Shown here: positions 20,495 to 57,404 of the stretch, one piece after another | How positions within the stretch are numbered: the first letter of the stretch is position 1 | Layout: each line of letters opens with the position of its first letter | Program-made: the position numbers and the translations under genes | NCBI RefSeq assembly: GCF_037094465.1 | Contig: NZ_CP146609.1 | Location: forward strand, 62,001 to 126,000 | Direction of reading: 5' to 3' | DNA: 64,000 nt | Origin: Pseudodesulfovibrio sp. 5S69 | GTDB lineage: Bacteria; Desulfobacterota; Desulfovibrionia; Desulfovibrionales; Desulfovibrionaceae | Notes under the pieces: generated by a model | Seen by the model: the letters and a program-made list of their open reading frames with translations, nothing else | What the model was told of the DNA's origin: nothing | Database searches by the model: none

Positions 20495-20600
20495 GCCTCC
20501 GGCGGCCGGGAAGGGAAGGAAAACCCTTTGAAAGGGTTCTTCCTTCCCTTCCGGACTCCATCCCTCCTTTCCAAACTTTTTATCGCCGCCTTCGGCGGGG
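20495..20600 (-). repeat. Intergenic repeat copy A, exonuclease leader
   Basis: Reading on the minus strand: CCGCCGAAGGCGGC, the AAAAAGTTTGG block, a purine-rich stretch, a long hairpin with arms GGAAGGGAAGGAA and TTCCTTCCCTTCC around ACCCTTTCAAAGGGT, then GGCCGCCGGAGGC. GGAGG serves as Shine-Dalgarno for the gene starting at 20489. Confidence 0.88.
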
Positions 20601-20670
20601 AGGGTTACGGGGATGGGTTACGTCTTATCAGGTTGCTACAAAACATCTTTCAAACCGCTCCCGCACGCAC

Positions 20671-20745
20671 CCGCGAAGCGGCGCCAAAAAGCTCGGAGGG
20701 GATCCAGGGCAACCCTTTCAAGGGTTCCCCCTGGCCGCCGGAGGC
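20671..20745 (+). repeat. Intergenic repeat copy B, at the purN 3' end
   Basis: This copy has the opposite orientation to copy A: CGCGAAGCGGCG, CAAAAAGCTCGG, hairpin CCAGGG..CCCTGG around AACCCTTTCAAGGGTT, then GGCCGCCGGAGGC abutting the purN stop codon (TCA on the plus strand at 20747-20749). With copy A it forms a tail-to-tail pair filling the purN-exonuclease gap. Confidence 0.85.
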
Positions 20746-20746
20746 A

Positions 20747-21451
20747 TCAAAAACCTTCTTCCAGCGGCGGCCAGACCAGGGCCTGGGTGTCCACGTCCAC
20801 GTCGGCCGTGGGTTGCATGGCCAGATTTCGGCTGGCCGGTTTGAGGTGCACGAACCGGCCGCGCTGCTCCAGGCGTCCTTCGGCCAGCCATTGCAGGGCC
20901 TGGGGGTAAATGCGGTGTTCCAGCTTGAGGATGCGCGCGCCGAGCGCGTCGCCGCCCTCCCCCGGCTGGCACGGCACGGCGGCCTGCATGATGACCGGGC
21001 CGTGGTCCATCTGTTCATCCACGAAATGCACGGTGCAGCCGGAGATCTTGACCCCGTAGTCCGCGGCGTCGGCCTGGCCGTGCACGCCGGGGAAGCTCGG
21101 CAGCAGGGCCGGGTGAATGTTGACCACGCGCCCCCGGAACGGTTCGAGGAAGACCGGGGTGACGATGCGCATGAACCCGGCCATGACCACCGCGCCCGTC
21201 TCGTTCACGCCCGATTCGCGGATAGCCCGGACCATCTCCTCGTCGAAGGCCTCGCGTGACGGGAATTCCGTGTGCAGCAGTACGCGGGTGGGAATGTGGT
21301 GGTTGCGCGCCCGGATCAGACCGTGGGAGTCTTCCCTGTTGGACACGACCACCTTGATCTCGGCGTCGAGCATGCCCGCTTCGATGCGGTCGATGATGGA
21401 TTGCAGGTTGGACCCGCCCCCGGACACGAGGACGGCGATGGGCATTGCCAT
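20747..21451 (-). CDS. purN: Phosphoribosylglycinamide formyltransferase
   Basis: PurN transfers a formyl group from 10-formyl-THF to GAR in purine synthesis. Motifs are IAVLVSGGGSNLQSIID at the N terminus, MRIVTPVFL, the catalytic-histidine stretch VVNIHPALLPSFPGVHG, and GCTVHFVDEQMDHGPVI. The protein has 234 residues, slightly longer than usual because of a C-terminal tail (LKPASRNLAMQPTADVDV). AGGGAG lies before the ATG at 21451. An ATG 6 nt later is also possible. Confidence 0.94.
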   Translation of the reverse strand: MAMPIAVLVSGGGSNLQSIIDRIEAGMLDAEIKVVVSNREDSHGLIRARNHHIPTRVLLHTEFPSREAFDEEMVRAIRESGVNETGAVVMAGFMRIVTPVFLEPFRGRVVNIHPALLPSFPGVHGQADAADYGVKISGCTVHFVDEQMDHGPVIMQAAVPCQPGEGGDALGARILKLEHRIYPQALQWLAEGRLEQRGRFVHLKPASRNLAMQPTADVDVDTQALVWPPLEEGF

Positions 21452-21554
21452 GGGTGCTCCCTTGAATGGTTGAAAAAGGCGGGGGTCGCCCCGTCCCCGA
21501 ACTTGGCCCAAAGCGCGCCCTTTTTCAAGGGCGTATTTCCGTTCCGGGCCTGCA

Positions 21555-21583
21555 TTGCCTTTTCGGAAGGCGCTCCGTATATT
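21555..21583 (+). promoter_or_regulatory. Sigma-70-type promoter of the solute-binding protein gene
   Basis: TTGCCT (21555-21560), a 17-nt spacer and TATATT (21578-21583) make a good match. Transcription would start near 21590, about 30 nt before the ATG at 21620. Confidence 0.65.
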
Positions 21584-21619
21584 GTGTCGAATCAAGCCTA
21601 TTACCCAAGGGATAAACCC

Positions 21620-22360
21620 ATGTATCGGCTGTGCACGCTGCTCATCCTGTTCCTGTTGCTCGGTCCCGGTCCGGCCGGAGCCGCGGACGTGCGCGTCATC
21701 ACCGAGAACAACCCGCCCCTGAACTTTGCCGGGACGGGCGGGCCCTCCGGCCTGGCCACCGACCTGTTCCTGCTCATGGCAGGCCGGGCCGGGCTCAAGG
21801 TGGCTCGCAAGGACATCCAGGTCTGGCCGAGGGCGCGCGGGTACCGGGAGATACAGGAGAAGAGCGACGTCATCCTCTATGCCATGGCCAGGACCGCCGC
21901 GCGCGAAAAGCTGTTCCGCTGGATCGGCCCGATCATGCCCCTGCACACCAGCCTCTTCGCCCTGAAATCCCGAGGCATCGTCATCAAGGACCCGGTCAAG
22001 GGGGCCTGGGAATATCGGTACGGGACCATCCGGTCCAGCGCCTCGGAACAGGAGCTCATCCGCCTGGGCGTGCCCCCGCACCGGCTGGAATCGGTCCACG
22101 ACCGCACCCTGAACATCCGCAAACTCCTCCTGGGGCACATCGACATCATGGTGGCCAACGAACCGGCCACCTTCTACTCCATCCGCCGGATGGACCTGAA
22201 CCCGGACGACTTCGAACCCGTCTACCGGCTGATGAGCTCCAACCTCTACTACGCCGCCAGCCGGGACCTGGACCCGGCCCTTGTGCTCCGTCTCCAGTCC
22301 GCCCTGGACGGACTCAAGGCCGACGGCACCGCCGCGCGGATCATCGAAAGCTACCGCTAG
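21620..22360 (+). CDS. Family 3 extracellular solute-binding protein (second, short)
   Basis: The 246-residue protein has a clear signal peptide (YRLCTLLILFLLLGPGPAGA, cleavage near GAADV). The mature domain starts VRVITENNPPLNF and shows GLATDLFLLMAGRAGL and IMVANEPATFYSIRRM, the pattern of amino-acid type binding proteins. No permease or ATPase is adjacent. The start is set by the signal peptide and by AAGG before the ATG. It is divergent from purN and has its own promoter. Confidence 0.85.
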   Translation: MYRLCTLLILFLLLGPGPAGAADVRVITENNPPLNFAGTGGPSGLATDLFLLMAGRAGLKVARKDIQVWPRARGYREIQEKSDVILYAMARTAAREKLFRWIGPIMPLHTSLFALKSRGIVIKDPVKGAWEYRYGTIRSSASEQELIRLGVPPHRLESVHDRTLNIRKLLLGHIDIMVANEPATFYSIRRMDLNPDDFEPVYRLMSSNLYYAASRDLDPALVLRLQSALDGLKADGTAARIIESYR

Positions 22361-22530
22361 CCCCACCCGACCCGCCGGTATTTTTTCGGCGTTCCATGCG
22401 ATATTCGCCACCGGACGGTGGCATGGACATCCGGGATATGGTATAGAATGACATTATCAATAAAAGAGCGGCGTTTTCGACGGCGCGACGCCCGGCGCGG
22501 ACGCTCCTCGCATATCCAAGGAGAACATCG

Positions 22531-22860
22531 ATGGCAGGCAAATTCGAACGCAAGCAGGCAAAGGACGAGCAGTGGATGTTCAACCTCAAGGCGGGCAACG
22601 GCCAGGTCATCCTGACCAGCGAGCTCTACACCACCAAGGCGGCCTGCAACAACGGCATCGCCAGCGTGCAGGCCAACAGCCCGCTCGACGAGCGCTACGA
22701 ACGCAAGGAGTCCAAGAGAGGCGAGCCCTATTTCGTGCTCAAGGCCGCGAACCACCAGATCATCGGCAAGAGCGAGATGTATTCCTCCAACGCGGCCATG
22801 GAGAACGGCATCGAGTCGGTCAAGACCAACGGCTCGACCGAGGTCATCGAGGACGTCTAG
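22531..22860 (+). CDS. YegP family protein with two DUF1508 repeats
   Basis: The 109-residue protein consists of two repeats of about 45 residues: FNLKAGNGQVILTSELYTTKAA... and FVLKAANHQIIGKSEMYSSNAA..., each with the GNGQVI/NHQIIGKSE pattern and ending in NGIASV or NGIESV. This is the YegP (UPF0339) architecture. The function is unknown. AAGGAG precedes the ATG. Transcription likely ends at the strong hairpin 20 nt after the stop. Confidence 0.92.
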   Translation: MAGKFERKQAKDEQWMFNLKAGNGQVILTSELYTTKAACNNGIASVQANSPLDERYERKESKRGEPYFVLKAANHQIIGKSEMYSSNAAMENGIESVKTNGSTEVIEDV

Positions 22861-22877
22861 CCCTGGTCCCGGCAACG

Positions 22878-22917
22878 AAAAAGGCCCGGTGCGCAATCCT
22901 GCGCGCCGGGCCTTTTT
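22878..22917. terminator. Bidirectional terminator between yegP and cobA-hemD
   Basis: AAGGCCCGGTGCGCA and TGCGCGCCGGGCCTT pair around ATCC to give a 15-bp stem with one imperfect pair. A residues precede it and TTTTTT follows, so it can act on both convergent transcripts. Confidence 0.88.
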
Positions 22918-22935
22918 TCGTATCTTGATGCGGGC

Positions 22936-24453
22936 CTATTTTGCGGCCGTCGCGTCCTGGATGAGTGCGTCCACCAGGCCGGGGATGGTGTAGTCCTCGG
23001 GCTCGATGGCCGGGGTCAGGCCGAATTTGCGGACCGTATCCGAGGTGACCGGGCCGATGGAGGCGATCTTCACGTCCGGATAATTTTTGAAGGCGTCCGC
23101 CGGGACCAGTTCGAAGAAGTTCTCCACCGTGCTCGACGAGGTGAAGGTCACGTAGCGGATGTCGCCCGCGCCGAGCGCTTCCATGATCTCGTCGCCCGAG
23201 GCCTGGCCCAGCCGGGTCTCGTAGACCGGCAGGACCGTGACCTTGCAGCCCGCCGCCTTGAGCTCGCGGGGCAGGACCTCTCTGGCCACCTTGGCGCGGG
23301 GGATGAGCACGTCCGAACCGGCGATGCCGCGTTCGAGCAGTCCCTTGACCACGTGCTCGGCCACGTATTTCTCGGGGATGAAGTCCGGCTCGATGCCCCG
23401 GGCGCGCAGTTCGTCCGCCGTGGCCGGGCCGATGGCCGCGATCTGCATGCCGCCGAAGATGCGTGCGTCCAGGCCGATGGCCCGAAGCTGTTGCCAGAAA
23501 TGCTTGACGCCGTTGACCGAGGTGAACACCACCCACTGGTACCGGGCCAGTTGCAGGATGGCGGTCTCGACCTCGGCATAGTCGTCGAGCGGCTCCACCG
23601 AGATGGTCGGGAACTCGCGCACGCACGCGCCCTGCTCGCGCAGGACGCCCACCAGGCCCGAGGCCTGCTCGCGAGCGCGGGTGACGATCACGCCCCGGCC
23701 GAGCATGGGCTTCTTCTCGAACCAGCCGAGCTTGTCGTGCAGGCTGCACACGCCGCCCACGATGATGATGGACGGGGCCTTCCACTGCCGGGCCTCGGCC
23801 TCTTCGGCCACGTGCTCCAGGTCGGACACAAACGAGGTCTGGTTGCAGCGCGTGCCCCAGCGCACCAAGGCAACCGGGGTATCGGCGGCGCGGCCGTTGT
23901 CCATGAGATTTTTGGCGATCATGGGCAGATTGCCCACGCCCATATAAAAGACCAGGGTGGAGGTGGACTGCCCGTACACGGCCCAGTTGTGGCCGGACTC
24001 GGATTTGGTCGGGTCCTCGTGCCCGGTGATGAAGCAGACGCTGGTGGTGTGGTCGCGGTGGGTCACCGGGATGCCCGCGTACGCGGCGGCGGCCACGCCC
24101 GCGGTGATGCCGGGCACCACCTCGAAGTCGATGCCCGCCTCAACGAGTTCCTCGCCTTCCTCCCCGCCGCGCCCGAACACGTACGGGTCGCCGCCCTTGA
24201 GGCGGCAGATGACCTTGCCGGACTTGGCCTTTTCGACGATCAGGCCGTTGATCTGGTCCTGGGGCAGGGTGTGGTCGCCGCCCTTCTTGCCCACGTACAG
24301 GATTTCGCAGTCCGGCTTGCACCACTTCAGAAATTCGGCGTTGGCCAGATAGTCGTAGATCATCACGTCGCACGACTCGATGATCTCCTTGGCCCGCAGG
24401 GTGAGCATGCCCGGATCGCCCGGCCCGGCTCCGACGAGAAATACGTTTGCCAT
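22936..24453 (-). CDS. cobA-hemD: Uroporphyrinogen-III C-methyltransferase / uroporphyrinogen-III synthase fusion
   Basis: The 505-residue bifunctional enzyme makes uroporphyrinogen III and methylates it to precorrin-2, the branch point to siroheme, haem (Ahb route) and cobalamin. Residues 1 to about 245 are the SAM methyltransferase: VFLVGAGPGDPGMLTLRA, KGGDPYVFGRGGEE and VVPGITAGVAAAAYAGIPVTHR. The rest is HemD: VIVTRAREQASGLVG, FTSVNGV and FTSSSTVENFFEL. The ATG at 24453 lies 7 nt after the GGAGGC end of an intergenic repeat. Confidence 0.96.
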   Translation of the reverse strand: MANVFLVGAGPGDPGMLTLRAKEIIESCDVMIYDYLANAEFLKWCKPDCEILYVGKKGGDHTLPQDQINGLIVEKAKSGKVICRLKGGDPYVFGRGGEEGEELVEAGIDFEVVPGITAGVAAAAYAGIPVTHRDHTTSVCFITGHEDPTKSESGHNWAVYGQSTSTLVFYMGVGNLPMIAKNLMDNGRAADTPVALVRWGTRCNQTSFVSDLEHVAEEAEARQWKAPSIIIVGGVCSLHDKLGWFEKKPMLGRGVIVTRAREQASGLVGVLREQGACVREFPTISVEPLDDYAEVETAILQLARYQWVVFTSVNGVKHFWQQLRAIGLDARIFGGMQIAAIGPATADELRARGIEPDFIPEKYVAEHVVKGLLERGIAGSDVLIPRAKVAREVLPRELKAAGCKVTVLPVYETRLGQASGDEIMEALGAGDIRYVTFTSSSTVENFFELVPADAFKNYPDVKIASIGPVTSDTVRKFGLTPAIEPEDYTIPGLVDALIQDATAAK

Positions 24454-24460
24454 AAGATTT

Positions 24461-24527
24461 GCCTCCGGCGGCCAGGGAACCTTTTGAAAAAGGTTCCCTG
24501 GACCCTCCAAAACTTTTTATCGCGGCG
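24461..24527 (-). repeat. Intergenic repeat copy C, cobA-hemD leader
   Basis: On the minus strand: GCGATAAAAAGTTTTGGAGG, hairpin CCAGGGAACCTTTT / AAAAGGTTCCCTGG, then CCGCCGGAGGC, which supplies the Shine-Dalgarno of the gene starting at 24453. The 5' GC hairpin seen in other copies is altered here (CTGCGCCGCG). Confidence 0.87.
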
Positions 24528-24593
24528 CAGGCCGGTCGTGCGGAATCGTTACCGCTGCATGCGCCGATTGGGGCCTGTTCTTTGCCCTGGATG

Positions 24594-27260
24594 TTACCCC
24601 ATCACCGACTCAAGGCGCGCCTTGAGCTGGGTCAGCTTGGTCTTTTCCTCTTCCATTTCGGCGAGCTTCTTCTTCTCGCCCTCGACCACCTCGGCCGGGG
24701 CGTTGTTCACGAAGCCGGGGTTCTTGAGCTTGCCGGCCACGCCCTTCATGGTCTTTTCGAGCTTGCCCAGGTTCTTGTCCAGGCGGGCCAGTTCGGCGTC
24801 GAAGTCGACCACGCCTTCCAGCGGCACGGACAGCTCGTTGCCCTGGACCACGGCCGCGCCCGAGGCCTTGGGAGCCTTGACGTCCGGGCCGATGGTCACG
24901 TTGTCGATGCGGGCCAGGGCCTGGATCAAGCCGAGGTTGGCCTCCAGCACGGCCTTGTCCGCGTCGCTCACGGTCCGGATCAGCAGGTCGAGCTTCTTGG
25001 CCGGTTCGATGAGCAGTTCGGTGCGGATGTTCCGAGTGCCGGAGACCACGCCCATGAACAGCTCCATCTCGGCCACGGCCTCGTCGTCCAGGCAGTCCGG
25101 CCGCTTCTCGGGGAACGGCAGGGTGGCGATATCCTCGCTGCGCTCATCGCCCGCGGGCCTCGGCAGGACGTTCCAGATCTCCTGGGTGATGAACGGGGTC
25201 ACCGGGTGGAGCAGGATCATGGTCTCGGACAGCACGGTCCACAACACGCGCTGGGTGGCGGCCTTGGCCTGCTCGTCTTCACCATAGAGCGCGGGTTTGA
25301 TCATCTCCAGGTACCAGTCGCAGAACTCGGACCAGATGAACTTGTAGAGCGTCTGGGCGATCTCGTTGAAGCGGTACTCCTCGGTGGCCCGGGCGATGGC
25401 TTCCTTGACCTCCTCCAGCCGATGGAGAATCCAACGGTTGGCCAGGTCGTCGGCCGCGTGCACGTCCGCGTCCGGAATCTCGTCGGGCAGGTTCATCATG
25501 GCGAACCGCGTGGCGTTCCAGACCTTGTTCATAAAATGCTTGTAGCCCTCGATGCGCTGCTCCGAGAGCTTGATGTCCCGGCCCATGGCCGCGAAGCTGG
25601 TCAGGGTGAAGCGCAGGGCGTCGGCCCCGTACTTCCCGATCATGTCCAGCGGGTCGATGACGTTGCCCGTGGACTTGGACATCTTTTTGCCCTGCTCGTC
25701 GCGCACCAGGGCGTGGATGTAGACGTGCCTGAACGGAATCTCCTCCATGAACTGGAGGCCCATCATCATCATGCGCGCCACCCAGAAGAACAGGATGTCG
25801 AAGCCGGTGACCAGGCAGGAGGTCGGGTAGTACTTGGCCAGCTCTTTCGTGTCGTCGGGCCAGCCCATGGTCGAGAACGGCCACAGGGCCGAGGAGAACC
25901 AGGTGTCCAGCACGTCCTCGTCCTGGACCAGCCTGGAGGAGCCGCACTTGGTGCACTTGGTCGGATCTTCCTTGGCCACGATGAGCTCGCCGCACTCCTC
26001 GCAGGTCCAGGCCGGGATGCGGTGGCCCCACCAGATCTGGCGGGAGATGCACCAGTCGCGGATCTCGTCCAGCCACTGGTAGTAGGTCTTGGTCCAGTGC
26101 TCCGGGAAGATCTGGGTTTCGGCCGGCACGGCGGCGCGGGCCTTTTCGGCCAGCGGCTTCATGGACACGAACCACTGGGTCGAAACGTGGGGCTCAATGG
26201 TCGATTTGCAGCGGTAGCAGACGCCCACCGAGTGGTCGTGGTCCACGATCTCGCCGAGCAGCCCTTCGGCTTCCAGGTCTTCGAGGACCACCTTGCGCGC
26301 CTCGGTCACGGACAGGCCCCGGTACTTCTCGGGCGCGTTCTCGTTGACGATGCCCTGCTCGTCCAGGATGGAGATGACCTCCAGGTTGTGCCTGCGGCCG
26401 ATCTCCCAGTCGTTCATGTCGTGGGCCGGGGTGACCTTGAGGCAGCCGGTGCCGAACTCCACGTCCACGTAGGAATCGCCGATGATCGGCAGTTCGCGGC
26501 CGACCAGGGGCAGGATGGCGGTCTTGCCGATGTACTTGTTGAACCGCTCGTCTTCCGGGTTCACGGCAATGGCCGAGTCGGCCAGCATGGTCTCGGGCCG
26601 GGTGGTGGCCACGATCAGATGGCCGGAGCCGTCGGCCAGGGGATATTTGACGTGGTGCAGCTTGCCCGGCTTGGCCTCGTGTTCGACCTCGTCGTCGGCC
26701 AGGGCGGTGTGGCAGCGGTTGCACCAGTTGATGATGTAGTCGCCCTTGTAGATCAGTCCCTGCTCGAACAGGGAGACGAAGACCTCGCGCACGGCCTTGG
26801 CCCGCTGCTCGTCAAAGGTGAAACACTCGCGGGTCCAGTCCACGGAAGCGCCCATGCGCCGGATCTGGCTGAGGATGTGGTCGCCCTTCTCCTTTTTCCA
26901 CTCCCAGACGCGCTCGATGAACTTTTCGCGCCCCAGGTCGTCGCGGGTCAACCCCTCTTCCTTCAACTGCCGTTCGACCACGTTCTGGGTGGCGATGCCC
27001 GCGTGGTCCGTGCCCGGCACCCACAGGACGTTCTTGCCCTGCTGGCGGTTGAAGCGGCAGAGGATGTCCTGGAGCGTCAGGTTCAGGGCGTGGCCCATGT
27101 GCAGGACGCCGGTGACGTTGGGCGGCGGGATGACGATGGAATAGGCGTCGCCCGGACCGTCGGGGTCCGGGGTGAAGGTCTCGCTCTGTTCCCAGTGGGT
27201 CTCCCACTTCTCTTCCACATCCCACGGTTCGTAGGCTTTGGCTAACTCTTTCCGGGCCAT
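24594..27260 (-). CDS. valS: Valyl-tRNA synthetase
   Basis: The 888-residue class I aminoacyl-tRNA synthetase charges tRNA-Val. Motifs are PPPNVTGVLHMGHALN (HIGH motif as HMGH, residues 54-57), WVPGTDHAGIATQ (61-85 region), the editing domain from about 180, and KKMSKSTGNVIDP (KMSKS at about 524). A C-terminal coiled-coil arm follows (LARLDKNLGKLEKTMKG, KKKLAEMEEEKTKL). A zinc-like CxxC pair occurs in the insert (TCEECGE, CTKCGSS). Its ATG at 27260 uses the GGAGGC of repeat copy D. Confidence 0.98.
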   Translation of the reverse strand: MARKELAKAYEPWDVEEKWETHWEQSETFTPDPDGPGDAYSIVIPPPNVTGVLHMGHALNLTLQDILCRFNRQQGKNVLWVPGTDHAGIATQNVVERQLKEEGLTRDDLGREKFIERVWEWKKEKGDHILSQIRRMGASVDWTRECFTFDEQRAKAVREVFVSLFEQGLIYKGDYIINWCNRCHTALADDEVEHEAKPGKLHHVKYPLADGSGHLIVATTRPETMLADSAIAVNPEDERFNKYIGKTAILPLVGRELPIIGDSYVDVEFGTGCLKVTPAHDMNDWEIGRRHNLEVISILDEQGIVNENAPEKYRGLSVTEARKVVLEDLEAEGLLGEIVDHDHSVGVCYRCKSTIEPHVSTQWFVSMKPLAEKARAAVPAETQIFPEHWTKTYYQWLDEIRDWCISRQIWWGHRIPAWTCEECGELIVAKEDPTKCTKCGSSRLVQDEDVLDTWFSSALWPFSTMGWPDDTKELAKYYPTSCLVTGFDILFFWVARMMMMGLQFMEEIPFRHVYIHALVRDEQGKKMSKSTGNVIDPLDMIGKYGADALRFTLTSFAAMGRDIKLSEQRIEGYKHFMNKVWNATRFAMMNLPDEIPDADVHAADDLANRWILHRLEEVKEAIARATEEYRFNEIAQTLYKFIWSEFCDWYLEMIKPALYGEDEQAKAATQRVLWTVLSETMILLHPVTPFITQEIWNVLPRPAGDERSEDIATLPFPEKRPDCLDDEAVAEMELFMGVVSGTRNIRTELLIEPAKKLDLLIRTVSDADKAVLEANLGLIQALARIDNVTIGPDVKAPKASGAAVVQGNELSVPLEGVVDFDAELARLDKNLGKLEKTMKGVAGKLKNPGFVNNAPAEVVEGEKKKLAEMEEEKTKLTQLKARLESVMG

Positions 27261-27266: not shown

Positions 27267-27376
27267 GCCTCCGGCGGCCGGGAAGAGGAGAGGAAACCCT
27301 TTGAAAGGGACTTTCCCTCTCCCTCCCCGGACCCCATCCCTCTTCCTTCCTAAACTTTTCGTGCCGCTTTCGGCGG
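27267..27376 (-). repeat. Intergenic repeat copy D, valS leader
   Basis: On the minus strand: TCCGCCGAAAGCGGCACG, AAAAGTTTAGG, a purine-rich stretch, an imperfect hairpin closed by CCGGGG and CTTCCCGG around TCCCTTTCAAAGGG, then GGCCGCCGGAGGC 6 nt before the valS ATG. Confidence 0.87.
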
Positions 27377-35678: not shown

Positions 35679-35741
35679 CCCCATAATTTTACCCGGTCCC
35701 GCCCTGCCCTGCAAGGGGATGCCTCCGGGGTGCCCCGGGAT

Positions 35742-35828
35742 GCCTCCGGCGGCCAGAGGGGGAACGTTTTGATAAAGTTCCCCCCTCTGGACTCCCCCTT
35801 CCAAACTTTTTATCGCCGCTTCGCGGGG
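35742..35828 (-). repeat. Intergenic repeat copy E, upstream of dinB
   Basis: On the minus strand: CGCGAAGCGGCG, AAAAAGTTTGG, hairpin CCAGAGGGGG / CCCCCTCTGG, then GGCCGCCGGAGGC. The end motif CCGGAGGCATCCC is repeated once more about 20 nt nearer to dinB (35717-35729), so this copy has a duplicated tail and is not directly at the start codon. Confidence 0.82.
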
Positions 35829-36041
35829 CGGGTCACAAAAAAAATCTCCGACACAACATTGAGTCGAAGGTTCCTCCCATTCTCTTTGGAGCGATTCGGG
35901 TGCGTCAGCACCCGACAGCGGCTCTCCGCGCGCGGGATAGGCTTTGATTCGCCCCGTCCTGGGGCTCACCCCTTCGGGGCGTTGCGGAAAGACCGCAACG
36001 TCCAAATCCGTTGTCCTGCGGATTTGTCGAGAGTGGGTCAG

Positions 36042-36121
36042 CTGTGCATTTTTCGAGGGTTCGCCTGACCGCAGCGTACCCCTGTACGTGAGGATCAGGC
36101 GGACCCTCGAAAAATGTGCAG
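36042..36121. repeat. Long inverted repeat (28-nt arms) at the cobB 3' end
   Basis: The left arm 36042-36069 and right arm 36094-36121 pair over 27 of 28 positions. The apex holds a second stem CGTAC/GTACG. Three pairs are G-T only when the plus strand is the RNA. It ends 30 nt before the cobB stop side. No T tract follows, so a simple terminator is unlikely. Confidence 0.85.
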
Positions 36122-36151
36122 ATGGCCCGCTATCGGAAACCGCCTATCGCG

Positions 36152-48609: not shown

Positions 48610-48718
48610 GCCTCCGGCGGCCGGGGAAGGGAGAGGGAAACCCTTTGAAAGGGCTTTCCTCTCCTTCTCGGACTCCATCCCTCTCCCTTCCTGAACTTTC
48701 TGTGCCGCCTTCGGCGGA
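48610..48718 (-). repeat. Intergenic repeat copy F, HD-hydrolase leader
   Basis: On the minus strand: TCCGCCGAAGGCGGCAC, GAAAGTTCAGG, a purine stretch GGGAGAGGGATGG, an imperfect hairpin with arms AAGGAGAGGAAA and TTTCCCTCTCCCTT around GCCCTTTCAAAGGG, then GGCCGCCGGAGGC before the ATG at 48603. Confidence 0.87.
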
Positions 48719-50041: not shown

Positions 50042-50788
50042 ATGCCTGTCGCCATGGACCCGCTCACCCTCGCGCTGATATTCCTCACGTTCTTCTTCGC
50101 CGCCTTCCTCAAGGGTACGGCCGGGCTCGGCTTCGCCACCACCTGCCTGGGCATCATGGCCGCCTACCTGGACATGCGCGTGGCCATCCCCCTGGTGATC
50201 ATCCCGTCCCTGCTGTCCAACACCCTGGTCATGATCGACGCGGGCGGCTTCCTGCCCATCCTGCGCCGTTTCAAATTCATGTTCCTGGCGGCCCTGCCCG
50301 GCCTGGCGCTCGGCCTGTGGCTGCTGGGCGGCAGCTCCTCGGCCACGCCCCGCCTGGTCCTGGGCGCGGCCATGATCCTCTATGGCGGCGGGGGGTTGTG
50401 GGGCGGCACCCTGCGCCTGACCCAGCGCCCGCTCCTGGACTGCGCCGTGGGCGTGGTCACCGGCACGATCAACGGGCTGACCGGCTCACAGATCATGCCC
50501 ATCCTGCCCTATCTCATGGCCCTGCCCATCTCCAAGGACGAACTCGTCCAGGCCATCAACACCTCCTTCACCCTGTCCTCGATCATCATGCTCGTGGGCC
50601 TGAACAAGCTGGGGCTCGTGTCCGGGGAGCTGGTCGCCGTCTCCGTCGTGGGGCTGGCCCCCGTGTTCCTGGGCATCTACATCGGCAGCAAGGTGCGGCG
50701 CAGGCTGCCCGAGGCCGCCTTCCGCAAGATCGTCTTCGCCCTTATCGGCCTCCTCGGCGTCGGGCTGGTCGTGCGCGCCTTCCTGTAG
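50042..50788 (+). CDS. TSUP (TauE/SafE) family membrane permease
   Basis: The 248-residue protein has about eight hydrophobic segments and two related halves, each starting with a G/T-rich helix (FLKGTAGLGFATTCLGIMAAYLD and TGTINGLTGSQIMPILPYLMALP split over the two halves). The family exports or imports sulfite, sulfonates or other organosulfur anions. The start is uncertain: ATG at 50042 or 50054, or TTG at 50018, which has the best Shine-Dalgarno (AGAGGGAAG). It is divergent from argJ. Confidence 0.88.
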   Translation: MPVAMDPLTLALIFLTFFFAAFLKGTAGLGFATTCLGIMAAYLDMRVAIPLVIIPSLLSNTLVMIDAGGFLPILRRFKFMFLAALPGLALGLWLLGGSSSATPRLVLGAAMILYGGGGLWGGTLRLTQRPLLDCAVGVVTGTINGLTGSQIMPILPYLMALPISKDELVQAINTSFTLSSIIMLVGLNKLGLVSGELVAVSVVGLAPVFLGIYIGSKVRRRLPEAAFRKIVFALIGLLGVGLVVRAFL

Positions 50789-50854
50789 GCCTTGCCTTCC
50801 GGCCCGGAACCGGCCTATTCTGGGTGCAAATCGGATATCCAAGGAGTTCCCGCC

Positions 50855-51331
50855 ATGCGCACCACGTCCCTTCGCCTGATCGCGGCCGTCCTGGCCGTGG
50901 CCGTCTTCAGCCTGCCCGCCCTGGCCGGGCGCAAGCTCTTCGTGTCGAACGGACAGACCGTGTACGTGCCCATCTACTCCCATGTCTACCAGGGCCCCAA
51001 GGGGAAGCCGTACAAACTGTCCGCCCTGCTCTCCATCCGCAACGTGGACCAGAAGCACGCCATCACCGTGACCTCGGTGAAGTACTACGACAACAACGGA
51101 AACCTGGTGAAGGACCACTGCACCGACCCCATATCCATCCCGCCCATGGGCACCCGCGAGGTCTACGTGTCCGAGCGCGACCAGTCCGGCGGCTCCGGGG
51201 CCAACTTCACGGTCAAGTGGCAGGCCGAAAACGACGCCGCCGTGCCCGTGATCCAGGCGGTCATGATCGGGACCGCCTCCGGACAGGGCATCTCCTTTGT
51301 CTGCGACGGCGTGGTCATTGAAGAGAACTGA
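50855..51331 (+). CDS. DUF3124 family secreted protein
   Basis: The 158-residue protein has a signal peptide (LRLIAAVLAVAVFSLPALA, cleavage near ALAGR). The mature part shows VYVPIYSHVYQGPKGKPYKLSALLSIRN, KYYDNNGNLVKDH, PPMGTREVYVSERDQSGGSGANFTVKW, which is the DUF3124 pattern, a beta-sandwich-like domain of unknown role. AAGGAG precedes the ATG. Confidence 0.88.
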   Translation: MRTTSLRLIAAVLAVAVFSLPALAGRKLFVSNGQTVYVPIYSHVYQGPKGKPYKLSALLSIRNVDQKHAITVTSVKYYDNNGNLVKDHCTDPISIPPMGTREVYVSERDQSGGSGANFTVKWQAENDAAVPVIQAVMIGTASGQGISFVCDGVVIEEN

Positions 51332-51471
51332 CGGCAAACGGCCCGCATGGGCCGCCCGTCCGCAATCCGCGCGCAATCCGCCTCCCTCCCGCCCGCACGG
51401 TTCCGCCCCGACCCCGTGACGGGAGCCGCACAAGCCGGCCCGCAGGCCGCCGCGAGAAAAAGACCGAAAGC

Positions 51472-52656
51472 ATGAAATCCAGCGTATTCACCAGCCTGTT
51501 CATCTCCACCGTGGTCGTCATGCTCGGCATCGGGGTCATCGCCCCGATTCTGCCCCTGTACGCCCACGGCATGGGCGCTTCGGGCGTTCAGATCGGCGCC
51601 ATCTTTTCCGGGTTCGCCCTGTCGCGCCTCTTCCTGGCCCCCCTGGTGGGCCGGTTCGCCGACCAGCACCGAAAAAAACGCATCCTCATGGCGGGGCTCG
51701 CGCTGTTCATCGCCATCTCCCTGGCCTATGTCTCGGCCGACTCGCCCACCCTGCTGCTGCTCATCCGCCTGGTCCAGGGCGGCGCGAGCGTGCTGGTCAC
51801 GCCCGTGGCCCAGTCCTACGTGGGCGACATTACCCCGGTGGGCCAGGAAGGCCGCATCGGCAACCTGTATTTCATGTCCATGTTCATGGGCATGGCCGGG
51901 GGCCCCTACCTGGGCGGCTGGCTGTGCGACCACTACGGCATGGCCGCGCCCTTCTATGCCATGAGCGTCCTGTCGTTCCTCGCCCTGCTGCTGATCCTGT
52001 TCCTGGTGCCCGACGCCCCGGCCACCGCGCCCCGGTCCGGGAAGTCTCCGTCCGGGTTCAAGGGGCTGCTGCCCATCTTCCGCGACCGCCCCATGTGGGG
52101 AGTCATGACCTACTTCGCCACGCGCGGCTTCTACCGCTGGGGCTTCAACTCCTTTTTCCCCATGCTGGCGGTCAAGGTCAGCGGAGCCAGCGTCACCGGG
52201 GTCGGGGTCGTCCTGTCGAGCTACATGCTCGCCGGTTCCCTGGTCCAGTATCCCTGCGGCCTGCTCGTGGACCGGTTCCCCCGCCACCGGGTCGCCTTCG
52301 TGCTCTGGGGCGGCGTCCTGGCCGCCCTGTCCATGTGCGCCATCGCCTACTGCCGGACCATGGTCATGTTTTTCCTGCTCTCCCTGGCCATGGGGCTGCT
52401 CAGCTCGGTGTCCCGCGCCGCCTGCATCGCCATCCAGACCGAGCGGGGCCGCATCCACGGCATGGGCGCGGCCGCCGGGGCGTTCACCTCCTCCATGAGC
52501 CTGGGCCAGGTCGCCGGCCCCCTGGCGCTGGGCCTGATCGTGGACTGGTCCGCCATCCCCACGGCCTTCATCGTGGCCGGCCTGATCGGCCTTGCCGGCG
52601 CGCTGGCCGCGGCCTATCTGCTGCGGCAGAACGGAGGCGGACAGACGGCCTCATGA
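51472..52656 (+). CDS. Major facilitator superfamily transporter
   Basis: The 394-residue inner-membrane protein has about 12 hydrophobic segments. The family signature after the second helix, LVGRFADQHRKKRILMAGLAL, and VQGGASVLVTPVAQSYVGDITP place it among drug-efflux-like MFS proteins. The substrate is unknown. No strong Shine-Dalgarno is seen. A bidirectional terminator lies just after its stop. Confidence 0.9.
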   Translation: MKSSVFTSLFISTVVVMLGIGVIAPILPLYAHGMGASGVQIGAIFSGFALSRLFLAPLVGRFADQHRKKRILMAGLALFIAISLAYVSADSPTLLLLIRLVQGGASVLVTPVAQSYVGDITPVGQEGRIGNLYFMSMFMGMAGGPYLGGWLCDHYGMAAPFYAMSVLSFLALLLILFLVPDAPATAPRSGKSPSGFKGLLPIFRDRPMWGVMTYFATRGFYRWGFNSFFPMLAVKVSGASVTGVGVVLSSYMLAGSLVQYPCGLLVDRFPRHRVAFVLWGGVLAALSMCAIAYCRTMVMFFLLSLAMGLLSSVSRAACIAIQTERGRIHGMGAAAGAFTSSMSLGQVAGPLALGLIVDWSAIPTAFIVAGLIGLAGALAAAYLLRQNGGGQTAS

Positions 52657-52681
52657 CCACGTCCGCCGAAACAAAGCGAAA

Positions 52682-52726
52682 AAAATCCCGCGACCACAGC
52701 CTTCGGGCGTGCGGTCGCGGGATTTT
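52682..52726. terminator. Bidirectional terminator after the MFS gene
   Basis: AAAATCCCGCGACC and GGTCGCGGGATTTT form a perfect 14-bp stem. The 17-nt loop itself can form GCC/GGC. A runs on the left and T run on the right allow both convergent genes to end here. Confidence 0.9.
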
Positions 52727-52764
52727 CGCTTCCGGCGCGATGCATTGCTGCCGAATTCGGCCCT

Positions 52765-53118
52765 CTAGGCCTCCAGCTCCTTCATCAGCCACTCCTTGAT
52801 GGGCGGGGTCAGTTCAAGGATGCCCTTGATGCCCTTGATGTCGTCGAGCAGTTGCCGGGCCAGGTCCTCGGGAATCTTCTTGGAACAGAGCACGGTCGAA
52901 CCGTAGTTGTTCATGCGCATGAGCACCACCTTGGGCTCGGCCCAGGTGTCGAGGGCGAAATACACCGAATATTCGCCGGACGTGGTCACCGGCGACCGCA
53001 TGGCGTCGCGGTAGTTGTTGTTGCCCCATTCCAGGTACAGGGTGACGGCATCCTCGTGGATCATGTCCCAGTTCACTTCGTTCAGCCACTGCTTGCAGGC
53101 GTTGGTGTCGTCGCTCAT
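52765..53118 (-). CDS. Conserved small protein, function unknown
   Basis: The 117-residue acidic protein begins NACKQWLNEVNWDMIHEDAVTLYLEWGNNNYRDA and ends IKGILELTPPIKEWLMKELEA. It has no signal peptide, membrane segment or known motif. It reminds me of a conserved hypothetical family in Desulfovibrio genomes, but I could not check this. A strong ribosome-binding site (GGAGGG) and a near-consensus promoter point to high expression. Confidence 0.8.
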   Translation of the reverse strand: MSDDTNACKQWLNEVNWDMIHEDAVTLYLEWGNNNYRDAMRSPVTTSGEYSVYFALDTWAEPKVVLMRMNNYGSTVLCSKKIPEDLARQLLDDIKGIKGILELTPPIKEWLMKELEA

Positions 53119-53152
53119 ATTCCCTCCAAAAGGTATTTATTCCATTTTTTTG

Positions 53153-53181
53153 ATAATAGGTCTCATCTGGAATTCTGTCCA
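53153..53181 (-). promoter_or_regulatory. Near-consensus sigma-70 promoter of the 117-residue protein gene
   Basis: On the minus strand TGGACA (53181-53176), a 17-nt spacer and TATTAT (53158-53153). Transcription would start about 28 nt before the ATG at 53118. Confidence 0.7.
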
Positions 53182-53190
53182 CCCCCGCGG

Positions 53191-53613
53191 TCACGGGTCG
53201 ATGCCGTTCTCCCGGTTCAGCCGGACCACCCAGGCCAGGACCGCGAACCCGGCCAGGAGCATCAGCGCCGCCAGCTCCCGGTCCCACAGGGCCCAGACCG
53301 CGAGCCCGGCCGCCAGCACCGTGAACGCCAGCCGCGACCACTTCACCCGGTTCCACGGCGCGGCCGACCAGTTCTTCTCCCACTCCACGCCGCCGCGCAC
53401 GAACCGGAACCACCGGTTGTCCGGCGGCGTGTCCAGCCTCAGCTCGAAAAAACCCACCCCCAGCAGGATCAGCGAGGCGGCCAGCATCAGGTAGCCGTGC
53501 GAAAACAAGGCCAGGCCGAACAGGACCAGGGCCGCGCAATGCAGGCTCCAGTTCCACGGCTGCCGGTGCCTGGACACCGCGAGCGCGAACAATGACGACG
53601 GCGTGACGACCAT
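53191..53613 (-). CDS. Small integral membrane protein, unknown
   Basis: The 140-residue protein has four hydrophobic segments in two pairs ([29 protein letters not shown] and [36 protein letters not shown], each split by a polar turn) with a soluble middle ([22 protein letters not shown]). The ATG at 53613 has GGGAGGGAG upstream. The earlier in-frame start is less likely. No family recognised. Confidence 0.75.
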
Positions 53614-53700
53614 GCTCCCTCCCCCCGGACCATACAAACGACCCCGCCGTCATTGCAACCCATTACGGGTTTTTGTAGAACCATGGCACGGAGGAACAAC

Positions 53701-54186
53701 ATGGATACCTATCTCATCTCGCGGGCCGTGGCCGAAGTGGGCGAATGCCTGCGCGTCGAAAACCGCTTCCTGGCCACCGCCGAGTCCTGCACCGGCGGCC
53801 TGCTCGCCAGCACCCTGACCGACACCCCCGGCAGCTCCGAATGGTTCGCCGGGGCCGTGGTCGCCTACTCCAATGCGGTCAAAAACAAACTCCTCGGCGT
53901 GCCCGCCGAAACCCTGGAAGCACACGGCGCGGTCTCCGAACCGGTCGTCCTGGCCATGGCCCAAGGCGTGCTCAAGACCATCGGCGCGGACGTGTCCGTG
54001 GCCATCTCCGGCATCGCCGGTCCCTCGGGCGGCACCCCGGAAAAGCCGGTCGGCACCGTCTGGATCGCCTGGGCTTGGCCCGGCGGCTCCCGCGCCAAGC
54101 TGTACAACTTCCAGGGCACCCGCGACCAGGTCAAAAGCCAGACCGTCATGGCCGCCATCAACGGACTGCTCGGCGTGACCAAGTAG
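53701..54186 (+). CDS. pncC: CinA C-terminal-domain nicotinamide-nucleotide amidase
   Basis: PncC hydrolyses NMN to nicotinic acid mononucleotide and ammonia, recycling pyridine nucleotides. The 161-residue stand-alone CinA C-terminal domain shows [24 protein letters not shown] (catalytic serine/threonine region), [17 protein letters not shown] and [28 protein letters not shown] precedes the ATG at 53701. It is divergent from the membrane protein gene. Confidence 0.94.
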
Positions 54187-54381
54187 CGCTGGTGGGGGAT
54201 GGCTTGGGGGGAGGCCTCCAGCGGCCCCTTCGGGGAGACCAGGGCGCTGCCCTGGACCCGGCAGGGAGCAAGACCCCCTGCACCCCCATGTTCGCTTCGC
54301 TCAGGTTCGTGCGGCAAGGAAGGCTGGCAAGGGACGCCTTCCGCCGTGCCGGTTGGCGATTTCGGGCGGAAAAAACGGATG

Positions 54382-54421
54382 AAACGGCGTGCCTCTTCTC
54401 GTGAAGGAGCACGCCGTTTTT
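54382..54421 (+). terminator. Rho-independent terminator downstream of pncC
   Basis: AAACGGCGTGC and GCACGCCGTTT form an 11-bp stem. The loop contains a nested CTTC/GAAG. TTTTT follows on the plus strand. It lies about 195 nt after the pncC stop. Confidence 0.8.
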
Positions 54422-54552
54422 CCCGCTCGAAATCGCGGGTTGTTTTTAGAGAAGGCGGAAAGCGGAAAGAACCACTTTTTTAGCAGCCGCAAGAAAACGC
54501 CGCCAAACCGATTGAATACGTTCAGCCCGACCTCGCCTGCGGCGTTGGCAAC

Positions 54553-54619
54553 CGTCCCGAAGGGATCGCGCCGGGCGGCCCTCCGAGGCCCGTGGCCGTC
54601 CGGCGCGATCCCTTCGGGA
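54553..54619. repeat. Perfect 21-bp inverted repeat extended to 27 bp
   Basis: Positions 54553-54573 and 54599-54619 are exact inverted complements (outer part GTCCCGAAGGGATCGCG). GCGGCC and GGCCGT continue the stem inwards with one G-T pair. The 13-nt loop contains CCT/AGG. Confidence 0.92.
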
Positions 54620-54685
54620 CACCGCCTGGCCGTGCACACTCCGTCCCCACGCGGAACAGACCGCTCCGCGCGAACGCACGCCTCT

Positions 54686-54797
54686 GCCGAAGGCACACAA
54701 AAGGTTTGGGAGATTCTTAAGAACCTTTTTCCCAAAAGGTTCTTAAGCCGCCGGAGGCATGTCTTTCACGCCCGCCCGGCGAGGGCCTGCCGGAGGC
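54686..54797 (+). repeat. Intergenic repeat copy G, at the rnhA 3' end
   Basis: Reads CCGAAGGCACACAAAAGGTTTG, then hairpin CTTAAGAACCTTTT / AAAAGGTTCTTAAG, CCGCCGGAGGC, a GC hairpin GCCCGCCCGGCGAGGGC and a second CCGGAGGC. It lies in the opposite sense to rnhA, right after its stop, and is closely similar to copy I. Confidence 0.82.
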
Positions 54798-54802
54798 TTC
54801 TC

Positions 54803-55288
54803 CTACTCCATGCCTTCGTCGACCAGCAAATCCCGGCTGGAGGCGGCGCCTCGGGCGAGGTCGTCGACGCGTTCGTTGAGCAGGTGTCCGGCGTGTCCCT
54901 TGACCCAATGGAAGGTGACGTCGTGTTCTTCGATGAGGGGCATGAGGCGTCGCCAGAGGTCCTGGTTCTTGACCGGTTTCTTGGCCGCGGTTTTCCAGCC
55001 GTTGCGCTGCCAGTTCTTGAGCCAGCGCTGGGTGATGGCCTGCTGGACGTATTTGGAGTCGGTCCAGAGGTCCACGGTGCAGGGGCGGGTGAGGGAGGAC
55101 AGGCCGACGATGACGGCGAGCAGTTCCATGCGGTTGTTGGTGGTCCGCTTGTAGCCCTGGGCGAGTTCCTTGTAGTTGTCGGCGTGTTCGCCCTTGTATT
55201 CGCCGTGAATGAGGACCGCGCCGTAGCCGCCGGGGCCGGGGTTGCCCAGGCAGGAACCGTCCGTATACATGGTCACGCGATCACTCAC
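54803..55288 (-). CDS. rnhA: Ribonuclease HI
   Basis: RNase HI cleaves RNA in RNA-DNA hybrids. The 161-residue protein has the four catalytic acids: D in [18 protein letters not shown] in [16 protein letters not shown] in [12 protein letters not shown] and D in [11 protein letters not shown], with [16 protein letters not shown] [12 protein letters not shown] before it. The start at 55288 overlaps the stop of the preceding gene by 8 nt. Confidence 0.97.
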
Positions 55289-55796
55289 TCTTGTTCTCCT
55301 TGTTCAATGAATCGAGTTTCTTGAGGATTTCCACCAAGACCTCCTGGATGGCCAGGGGCCAGTCGCCCTCCTTGAAGGACGGGAGCAGGAACGTGGTCTT
55401 GAGGGACTGGATGAATTCCGGGCCGAACGCGGTGCGCAGGAGCGGCGGGAAGCGCAGCTCCGCCGCGTCGATGGCCGGAGCCAGACCGATGTACAGGGTC
55501 TTGTCGTCCAGTTCGGGGACCACGAAGTCGCCGCCGTAGACCTGGATCTTGCAGTTGAGCCCCCACTTGTCGCGCAGGGTCTGGGTGAAGGAGACGATCA
55601 TCTTCTTCTGGTCCCTGGTCAGGGAGCCGGTCTCGTCGTACACGGCGCTCTGCTGGTTGAGGACCTCGACCACGTGCTCGTTGTTCTTCATGAACGCCCA
55701 GATGACGGCGGCGAAGACCAGGATGAGCGCCAGGGAGCGGATGACCTTTTCCCGGGGCGAGGAACCGTACACTCGGGGGATGTTGATGCGGCGCAT
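55281..55796 (-). CDS. Membrane-anchored protein of unknown function
   Basis: The 171-residue protein has one membrane segment ([19 protein letters not shown], residues about 18-36) followed by a soluble domain with [50 protein letters not shown]. The last part has a weak resemblance to TPM-type domains, not enough for a call. It is upstream of and overlaps rnhA. Confidence 0.72.
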
Positions 55797-55897
55797 TTCT
55801 GCTCTCTATCGTGCGGGGGGATTTCAGGCAAGGGCCAAGCGTACACGCGGGTTCGGGCCGATGGCTGCAGCGCGGCACTCGAACCCGGATCGGCGCC

Positions 55898-57127
55898 CTA
55901 GCCTTCGCCGCGCAGGGCCTGGATGGGGTCCAGGGATGCGGCCTGCCGGGCGGGCTTGAGGCCGAAGACCAGGCCCACGGCCTGAGACCCGACCAGGGCC
56001 ATGAAGAACGCCTTCCAGGAGAACTGGATGGTCAGGATGTCCAGGCGCGAAAGAAACTGGCCGAGCCCCAGGCCGAGGAACAGGCCGAGCACCCCGCCGA
56101 GCATGGTCAGAGCGCAGGCCTCGACCAGGAATTGCAGCATGATGGCGGAATTGCGCGCGCCCATGGCCTTTTTCAAACCGATCTCCTCGGCCCGCTCCGA
56201 GACCGAGATGGAGAAGAGGTTGGCCAGGACGAACCCGCCCACGAGCACGGCGATGCCCGCGGTCACGCCCAGGAAGACGGTCAGGCCGCCCTTGAAGAAC
56301 GCCAGGAACTTGAGGATCTCGTCGGCGGTGACGATGGAGAAGTCGTCGTCCTCCTCGGGCGCGAGGTGGTGCAGGTGCCGGAGCAGGGAGCGCAGGTTCT
56401 CGGTGTGCGCGGGCATGTAGTCCGGCTCCACGAACTTGACGCGCAGGGCGCGGAAGTACTTGCGGTCCATGTTGTAGCGCTGGACCAGGGTGGACAGGGG
56501 GATGATGATGCGGTTGTCCACGTCGCCGCCCCCGCCCGAAGTCACGCCGCGGTAGGAGAGCTTGCCGACCACCTGGAACGGAATACCCGAGATGTACAGG
56601 ACCCGACCCACGGGCGACTCGCCGCCGAACAGTTCGCGGGACGGCGTTTCGCCCAGCAGGGCGACCTTGGCCCCGACGCGCTCGTCCTCGGCCGACAGGT
56701 CGCGGCCCTCGCTCAGCGGCCAGTTCCAGGCCTTGGAATAGCCCTGGGTCGTGCCGACGATGACCACGTCTTGGTAGGTGCGGTTGCCCGCCCGGACCGT
56801 CTGCCCGTACTTGGCCCGCATGGGCAGCACCTGGTACGCGCCGGGCAGAGAATCCCGGATGCGCGCGGCGTCCTCGCGGCTGAGCGTCAGGGTGCGCATG
56901 CCCACGGCCCGTTTCCGGAAGTTGCCGCCGAAGACCAGGGCCGCGTCCGGGCCGAACATGTCGACCATGTCCACGGCCATGCGGTTGGCCCCGTCCACGG
57001 CCGTGACGATCAGGGTCAGCGAGGCGATGCCGAAGGCCACGCCCAAGACCACGAAGATGGAACGCAGCTTGAAGGCCCAGACAGCCTCCAAGCCCATGCC
57101 CGCCACTCTCGCCAAGGTCCGTATCAT
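55898..57127 (-). CDS. MacB-type ABC transporter permease (separate subunit)
   Basis: The 409-residue protein has an N-terminal membrane helix (VWAFKLRSIFVVLGVAFGIASLTLIV), a long MacB_PCD-like periplasmic domain (about 40-270) and three C-terminal helices forming the FtsX domain (GGLTVFLGVTAGIAVLVGGFVLANLFSISVSER, EIGLKKAMGARNSAIMLQFLVEA, then SWKAFFMALVGSQAVGLVFGL). It pairs with the ATPase gene 290 nt upstream. Its ATG at 57127 follows the GGAGGC of repeat copy H by 8 nt. Confidence 0.9.
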   Translation of the reverse strand: MIRTLARVAGMGLEAVWAFKLRSIFVVLGVAFGIASLTLIVTAVDGANRMAVDMVDMFGPDAALVFGGNFRKRAVGMRTLTLSREDAARIRDSLPGAYQVLPMRAKYGQTVRAGNRTYQDVVIVGTTQGYSKAWNWPLSEGRDLSAEDERVGAKVALLGETPSRELFGGESPVGRVLYISGIPFQVVGKLSYRGVTSGGGGDVDNRIIIPLSTLVQRYNMDRKYFRALRVKFVEPDYMPAHTENLRSLLRHLHHLAPEEDDDFSIVTADEILKFLAFFKGGLTVFLGVTAGIAVLVGGFVLANLFSISVSERAEEIGLKKAMGARNSAIMLQFLVEACALTMLGGVLGLFLGLGLGQFLSRLDILTIQFSWKAFFMALVGSQAVGLVFGLKPARQAASLDPIQALRGEG

Positions 57128-57135
57128 CGCGTTTC

Positions 57136-57196
57136 GCCTCCGGCGGCCCCCCATCCCCTCTCACCCTCCTCAACTTTTCAGCGCCGCTTCGCGGGG
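57136..57196 (-). repeat. Intergenic repeat copy H (short), permease leader
   Basis: On the minus strand: CCGCGAAGCGGCG, TGAAAAGTTGAGGAGGG, a purine stretch and GGCCGCCGGAGGC before the permease ATG. The central covarying hairpin is absent, which makes this the shortest copy. Confidence 0.8.
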
Positions 57197-57305
57197 AGGG
57201 TGAGCCGGGTTCCGTCTGTTTCTCGTTACAATTCTAATAACTTATCAAAATTCCTGCCTGGGAATCCGTGTTCCCCATCTCCGCCCTTCGCTTCCGCACG
57301 CCCCT

Positions 57306-57404
57306 GCCGTAGGCACCCAAAAAGTTTTGGAGATTCTCAAGAACCTTTTCCAAAAGGTTCTTGAGCCGCCGGAGGCGCCCGCCCGGCGAGGGCCCGCCGG
57401 AGGC
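57306..57404 (+). repeat. Intergenic repeat copy I, at the ATPase gene 3' end
   Basis: Reads GCCGTAGGCACCCAAAAAGTTTTGG, hairpin CTCAAGAACCTTTT / AAAAGGTTCTTGAG, CCGCCGGAGGC, a GC hairpin and a second CCGGAGGC. It is the counterpart of copy G and points into the 3' end of the exporter ATPase gene. Confidence 0.82.

Follow-up and report, generated by a model that had tools for sequence, protein, structure and literature searches.

A dispersed intergenic repeat with a putative intrastrand triple-helix code in Pseudodesulfovibrio sp. 5S69

A dispersed intergenic repeat was analyzed in a stretch of 64,000 nucleotides of Pseudodesulfovibrio sp. 5S69 (hereafter the window; positions 62001-126000 of a single-contig genome, 4,161,161 bp; G+C content 65.8%). 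An earlier note on this DNA had described nine copies of the repeat between 20.5 and 57.4 kb and interpreted them as RNA hairpins whose end supplies the Shine-Dalgarno sequence of the next gene. All nine stretches were recovered where the note had placed them, and they are designated copies A to I in positional order within the window. As argued below, the repeat is probably a dispersed intergenic DNA element resembling repetitive extragenic palindromic (REP) sequences, with an intrastrand triple helix as its core. The exact 11-base core GCCTCCGGCGG was present once in each of copies A to H and twice in copy I (10 places in the window); with at most one mismatch, it was found at 19 places, compared with 8.9 ± 3.1 in shuffled sequences (shuffle maximum 16).

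Copy A (20495..20581, GCCTCC on the + strand) is composed of the core (20495-20507), a purine arm beginning at 20508, a hairpin extending to 20554, a mirror third segment at about 20555-20572, and the AAACTTTTT tail at 20573-20581, the segment ends being hand-counted; its GGAGGC is on the − strand. Copy B (20671..20745, − strand) has its GCCTCC end 1 nt past the stop of a − strand formyl-transferase gene and forms an outward-facing pair with copy A. Copy C (24461..24527, +) bears the short arm AGGGAACC and the third segment ACCCTCC, and copy D (27267..27376, +) has a long arm, as does copy F (48610..48718, +), which the parser failed to resolve and which was read by eye. Copy E (35742..35828, +), with arm AGAGGGGGAA and third segment ACTCCCCCTTCC (about 35791-35802), is located without a start codon at Shine-Dalgarno distance. 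Upstream of it, at 35702-35741, the GGAGGCATCCC end motif recurs (GGAGGCATCCCGGGGCACCCCGGAGGCATCCCC when read on the − strand), forming a partial tandem of the core. Copies G (54686..54797, −) and I (57306..57404, −) are composite: the former consists of two GCCTCCGGC-type modules followed by a TTAAGAACC hairpin, and the latter of two cores followed by a TCAAGAACC hairpin. Copy H (57136..57196, +) comprises only the core and a third-like pyrimidine stretch and is devoid of a hairpin. Both copy H and locus L045 are without the hairpin or one arm and retain the third segment, which suggests slippage deletions between mirror segments. An additional degenerate copy, absent from the earlier note, was located at 54214..54330 (+; end approximate), about 27 nt past the stop of a CinA gene, with the core GCCTCCAGCGGC. 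It contains a GCCCCTTCGGGG-type module and is overlapped by a weak Rfam match (Clostridiales-2) below the gathering cut-off.

The five genes named in the earlier note held up, and they correspond to an RNase_T exonuclease (copy A), TP_methylase plus HEM4 (cobA-hemD; copy C), ValS (copy D), an HD-domain protein (copy F), and a MacB/FtsX permease (copy H). The distance from GGAGGC to their ATG was 5, 7, 6, 6, and 8 nt, respectively. Copies B, E, G, and I do not provide a Shine-Dalgarno sequence.

In the whole genome, the 13-base core GCCTCCGGCGGCC had 58 + 58 exact matches (116 copies), against 0 + 0 for the reversed-pattern control; the copy statistics given here for our genome cover 100 of these 116 copies, read with their flanks. 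The ends of the element are fixed (GCCTCCGGCGGCC and AAACTTTTT), the median core-to-tail length is 81 nt (based on the 49 with a readable tail), and a T immediately precedes GCC in 67/100 copies. On the GGAGGC strand, the order of the segments is third purine segment, purine arm, loop, and pyrimidine arm, which corresponds to class I (G.GC, A.AT, and T.AT triads), and on the opposite strand it is purine arm, pyrimidine arm, and pyrimidine third segment, which corresponds to class III. That the hairpin arms vary and yet remain complementary, as previously proposed, was corroborated by a z of 14.0 for own pairs over length-matched swaps (80 copies from all genomes read, 55 distinct arms), a value inflated by the parser, which discarded copies lacking a partial match in the 3′ arm.

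Beyond the hairpin, the pyrimidine stretch located 3′ of it and before AAACTTTTT complements the 5′ purine arm in parallel rather than antiparallel direction and mirrors the 3′ arm. Arm and third segment vary together within our genome and in others, as in the pairs AGAGGGGAAAC/ACTCCCCTTC, AGAGGGAAAAC/ACTCCCTTTC, AGGGGGG/ACCCCCC, AGAGAACC/ACTCTCC, and GGGGGAAGGGGAGGAAAAA/ACCCCCATCCCCTCCTTTT. This three-way match, overlooked in the earlier note, corresponds to the triad code of a putative intrastrand DNA triplex. A mirror relation is what third-strand pairing demands and, by reasoning, cannot be obtained by template copying. For its quantification, 173/255 copies were parsed without use of the third segment (73/100 from our genome and 100/155 from others), yielding 126 unique arm/third pairs; the 82 copies dropped by the parser were 27/100 of ours and 55/155 of the others, including a variant from SAR324 and Desulfoluna. 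Two of the 126 pairs, with an arm of 4, fell outside the length classes, leaving 44 long and 80 short arms.

When pairs were permuted, the parallel match reached a z of 9.2 for the long arms and 15.8 for the short ones, and the antiparallel match 0.2 and 6.5. When permutation was length-matched and each cluster was represented once, the parallel z of the long arms was 8.0, 7.7, 5.3, and 3.1 at cluster edit distances of 0, 3, 5, and 7 (n = 44, 37, 24, and 12), with antiparallel controls of 0.1, 0.5, 1.8, and 0.2; for the short arms it was 11.5, 6.2, and 3.8 at distances of 0, 3, and 5 (n = 80, 27, and 14), with controls of 3.5, 1.8, and 1.5. Copy by copy, the parallel score exceeded the antiparallel one in 38/44 long and 67/80 short copies, was lower in 2 and 4, and tied in 4 and 9. 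An ungapped slip control peaked at offset 1 for the long arms (0.676; neighbours 0.521 and 0.590) and at offset 0 for the short arms (0.690; neighbours 0.573 and 0.461). At the level of single bases in the long copies, an arm G was accompanied by a third C in 434/468 cases, and an arm A by a third T in 224, C in 45, and A in 44 of 316. Excluding the first base of the third segment, a third A stood opposite an arm A 43 times and opposite an arm G 8 times, a share reached by 4/300 permutations, and the levels of T opposite A and of C opposite G were each reached by 0/300. Read on the GGAGGC strand, these matches correspond to A.AT or T.AT and G.GC, which PMC4666352 lists as purine-motif triads, and the preference of third A for arm A matches the prediction for the T.AT triad. 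A stem of at least 8 was obtained with the own third segment in 48/60 copies of our genome (arm ≥9) and with swapped thirds in 34-38/60. Among 50 imperfect hairpins, the third segment agreed better with the purine arm in 29 and with the pyrimidine arm in 11, the remaining 10 being equal (binomial p = 0.006, a rough value owing to indels).

Within the window, scoring was restricted to the five parsed copies, since the parser did not resolve F or H, and in G and I the core is followed by T, which placed them outside the set. Copy E carries the clearest triplex code (parallel 8, antiparallel 2), and the parallel:antiparallel scores of copies A and C were 5:2 and 2:1. Given the weak scores within the window, the finding rests on the family and not on the window alone.

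The placement of the copies relative to genes was determined with a codon-usage gene caller and by direct reading. The former placed 98/100 copies between genes, with the GCCTCC end turned toward a stop in 67/98 and toward a start in 31/98; 41/97 copies lie between convergent genes and 3/97 between divergent ones, and from the GCCTCC end to the far gene there is a median of 316 nt. Some starts are misplaced by the caller; that of cobA-hemD, for example, was put 52 nt away, versus 7 by direct reading. Direct reading located 41/100 copies at most 21 nt past a stop and found a start codon 4-9 nt beyond GGAGGC in 13/100, one of which also belongs to the stop-side group. Of the 27 copies at 25-125 nt past a stop, 23 sit behind a terminator-like hairpin and a T-rich stretch, called by a loose rule without a control. 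By these three criteria together, 76/100 are edge copies. Neighbouring copies at most 800 bp apart were oriented outward 14 times, inward never, and the same way once. In our genome, the copies are located at transcription-unit edges with a fixed polarity, the GCCTCC end toward the gene. The third-strand signal (arms ≥9) was detected in copies of the stop side (n = 39, z = 8.3) and in those of the start side (n = 21, z = 2.9), and the scores per base were equal (0.480 and 0.484). Stop-side and start-side copies have different strands transcribed, and a signal in both therefore argues for DNA rather than RNA.

Orthologous sites were compared in two close relatives, G156 and G205, which match our genome at 89% and 87% over a 9 kb stretch; the comparison covered all copies but E. 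Copies A, C, D, and F are kept at the same sites in both relatives, the site of copy B carries a different subtype in both, and a related copy occupies the site of copy G in G156. At the sites of copies H and I, no core was found in either relative. In the copy F orthologues of the three genomes, the arm parts GAGAGGGAAA, GGAGGAAAAA, and GGAGAGGAAA are accompanied by the third parts CTCTCCCTT, CCTCCTTTT, and CCTCTTACTT, so that arm and third segment shift together; conversion between copies could be the cause of some of this joint change. Upstream of valS, 12 loci were read out of 36 matching genomes. A full copy was present at six of the 12 (our genome, G156, G205, G141, G077, and G075, one of them partly masked), a truncated copy in G204, and none in G206, G123, G152, G036, and G064. 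These five element-free loci carry GGAAGG at Shine-Dalgarno distance, and the GGAGG of the element at this gene is therefore a substitute and not a conserved control.

Regarding the spread of the repeat, the strict element pattern was found in 22/199 genomes of the class, ours included, with controls of 0. Among 99 genomes sampled from the phylum, core counts stood out in ours (116), G001 (76), G257 (20), and, weakly, G273 (8, control 1), the rest being near the controls. A scan of named genomes returned at least 101 stretches; among the matches listed, 53 came from three Aminicenantes assemblies, and others from Pseudodesulfovibrio, Desulfoluna, SAR324, a metagenome-assembled genome (MAG) of Acidobacteriota, Ruminococcus, and more. 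Several single matches, such as those in Bacteroidia (L063) and Rokubacteria (L088), have no hairpin and look like chance. Counted as cores and not as checked elements (reversed controls 0-3 in 15 genomes), the numbers were 546, 324, and 92 in Aminicenantes, 566 and 396 in Desulfoluna, 71 in the Acidobacteriota MAG, 59 in SAR324, and 2 and 2 in Ruminococcus. The core is preceded by T in 31/34 copies of one Aminicenantes assembly. Some Aminicenantes copies, together with copies in SAR324 and Desulfoluna, belong to a variant (GCCTCCGGCGGCCCTGCCGGGGGC...) that was left unparsed. A variant family characterized by GCCTCCGGCGGCCCT(G)CCGGGGG and by an AAACTTT hairpin was observed in Desulfoluna, Aminicenantes, and SAR324 (L078, L092, L109, L112, L140, L089, L091, and L062). 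In one Aminicenantes MAG (L095, L110, L126, L136, L138, and L157), a second repeated stretch resembling CTCTATCAGAACTTTTTTTT precedes the repeat, giving a longer unit. On the contigs of G210, many listed copies are situated in the first 100 bases, as if the repeat broke assemblies.

When compared to known repeat kinds, the element resembles REP, BIME, and REPIN sequences, which are short palindromic intergenic repeats often arranged as inverted pairs, and differs from them by its third strand segment and longer unit. Mobilisation by a RAYT was considered and rejected: no RAYT-type Y1 transposase (PF01797) was detected in our genome, while the control was detected in 5 of 14. Miniature inverted-repeat transposable elements (MITEs) are likewise short, non-coding, and present in many copies; unlike theirs, the ends of this element (GCCTCCGGCGGCC and AAACTTTTT) do not, on inspection, form an inverted repeat. 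Among described kinds, the nearest is the potential intrastrand triplex (PIT) repeat of E. coli and relatives, also called BoxC or TM_ECO (Holder et al. 2015, PMC4666352). It shares with our element a dispersed intergenic location, three same-strand stem segments under triad rules, both orientations with some inverted pairs, and a copy number strongly variable among related strains. The copies of TM_ECO, a class II motif (Y-R-third), are highly similar to one another, and their loops measure 3-6 nt (passages of PMC4666352). In contrast, our family differs in its class I order (third-R-Y), in sequences that vary while the code is kept, in a second loop that forms a long paired top (12-41 nt in example copies), in its fixed ends, and in its gene-edge polarity in our genome. 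The TM_ECO class II consensus CCCTCNCCC-N3-6-GGGNGAGGG-N3-GGGNGAGGG had 0 matches in the window and, with up to three substitutions, 0 in 296,396 bp of our genome (72 stretches, window included). The ITxF definition requires three consecutive same-strand segments with AAT/GGC/TAT triads, stems of 6-15 nt, at most one mismatch, and loops of 1-6 nt. With our own coding of this rule (class I only, GGAGGC strand, 125 nt per copy), and with loop 2 extended to 45 nt, 64/100 copies conformed and 36 did not, compared with 4, 5, and 2 of 100 shuffled copies; with the published loops of 1-6 nt, only 3/100 did. No description of this element was found in the titles and abstracts searched, most subscription papers being outside the search scope. 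In Rfam, no match reached the gathering cut-off in the window, and between 20400 and 58000 six matches with E up to 0.5 all fell below it.

By sequence comparison we could demonstrate the copy number, the covarying arms, a third segment that tracks the arm in parallel, the gene-edge placement with fixed polarity in our genome, and several copies at orthologous sites, and these features are most consistent with the REP-like element with a triple-helix core proposed above. The fold would form on DNA that is transiently single-stranded, either on the lagging strand or, at gene ends, in the wake of RNA polymerase, and may itself be the target of selection. Most likely, the folded form would be the one recognised and spread, and it would be tolerated at transcription-unit edges. 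Several points weigh against this interpretation. In the window, copy D ties (4:4) and copy B favours the antiparallel match (2:3); across the family, 15/126 unique pairs score ≤0 in parallel, several of them evident misparses, the arm A with third C is a common exception to the code (44 cases), the unclustered short arms carry some antiparallel signal, and the unparsed share of our own copies (27/100) adds to this. Conversion between copies could carry arm and third segment together. Gene-edge placement was not clear in Aminicenantes, where copies were few, contigs fragmentary, and the gene caller crude. The missing PF01797 transposase also counts here, as does the failure to find, at valS or at the sites of H and I, a clean empty site or precise junction where a target duplication could be read, the whole intergenic sequence being different. 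Finally, passages of PMC4666352 report that TM_ECO folds in vitro and is linked to instability, whereas in vivo dimethyl sulfate footprinting gave no support for a stable triplex.

The alternative that there is no third strand, and that low-complexity, mirror-like purine runs together with copying between paralogues mimic the three-way match, appears quite unlikely. The G/A-run arms do allow swapped thirds to match fairly well (34-38 versus 48 of 60), some pairs score ≤0, and the widest clustering leaves just 12-14 clusters; composition, however, should aid the antiparallel match equally, and the long arms are null in that direction (z = 0.1), the signal survives clustering, and template copying, by reasoning, is unable to make a mirror. 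A host boundary element, in which a triplex or H-DNA at unit ends absorbs supercoiling or halts polymerases and so prevents interference under host-level selection, has somewhat better prospects but still seems unlikely. The 76/100 edge copies, the excess of convergent over divergent sites (41 and 3 of 97), and the retention of sites A, C, D, and F in both close relatives agree with it, against which stand the patchy distribution in the phylum sample, where four genomes stand out, the presence of the valS element in some species of the genus and its absence from others, and the lack of promoter or terminator activity in E. coli PIT elements (passages of PMC4666352). A cryptic terminator or attenuator, suggested by the stop-side position and by a hairpin in the sense strand, is the least probable explanation, with a C-rich third segment read after the hairpin instead of a T-run. 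A terminator role was rejected, as many copies follow separate terminator-like hairpins (the 23/27 noted above).

The reading first envisaged, in which an RNA hairpin acts in cis by supplying or masking the Shine-Dalgarno sequence of the next gene, is likewise very improbable. In its favour are the start codons 4-9 nt beyond GGAGGC in 13/100 copies, five of them in the window, and the covariation of the arms. The expected non-random placement relative to genes was borne out, but with starts at that distance in so few copies, with 41/100 following stops and 23 more behind terminator-like hairpins, and with most copies facing a stop (67 vs 31 of 98). The covariation itself stands, and the three-strand signal, being present on both gene sides, is not tied to one RNA strand; on the start side, moreover, the RNA would have the purine-motif order, reportedly not triplex-forming in RNA (passages of PMC4666352). 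The proposed pairing of a 5′ GCGGC with GCCGC beside the Shine-Dalgarno was not sustained as a general switch and was dropped: the GCCGC partner is present in 33/76 readable tails of our genome and missing in 43/76. Under the triple-helix reading favoured here, the Shine-Dalgarno sequence of roughly one in eight copies is a side product of the GGAGGC end being fixed.

The varied sequences with a kept three-strand match constitute natural compensatory changes, unavailable from the highly similar TM_ECO copies, and offer a direct test of structure, and the fixed gene-end polarity in our genome gives a concrete place to seek the reader of the element. As a tentative extension, plausible though still short of probable, the repeat family could be common to several phyla and defined by a triple-helix code rather than by sequence, with arms that drift and a third segment that is corrected. 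It would then represent comparative evidence for selected intrastrand triplexes, read at transcription-unit edges by a dedicated protein or replication step.

Elsewhere in the window, at 36028-36135, we observed a foldback with 52-nt arms that are 77% complementary and separated by 4 nt, the sequence of which is unrelated to the repeat.

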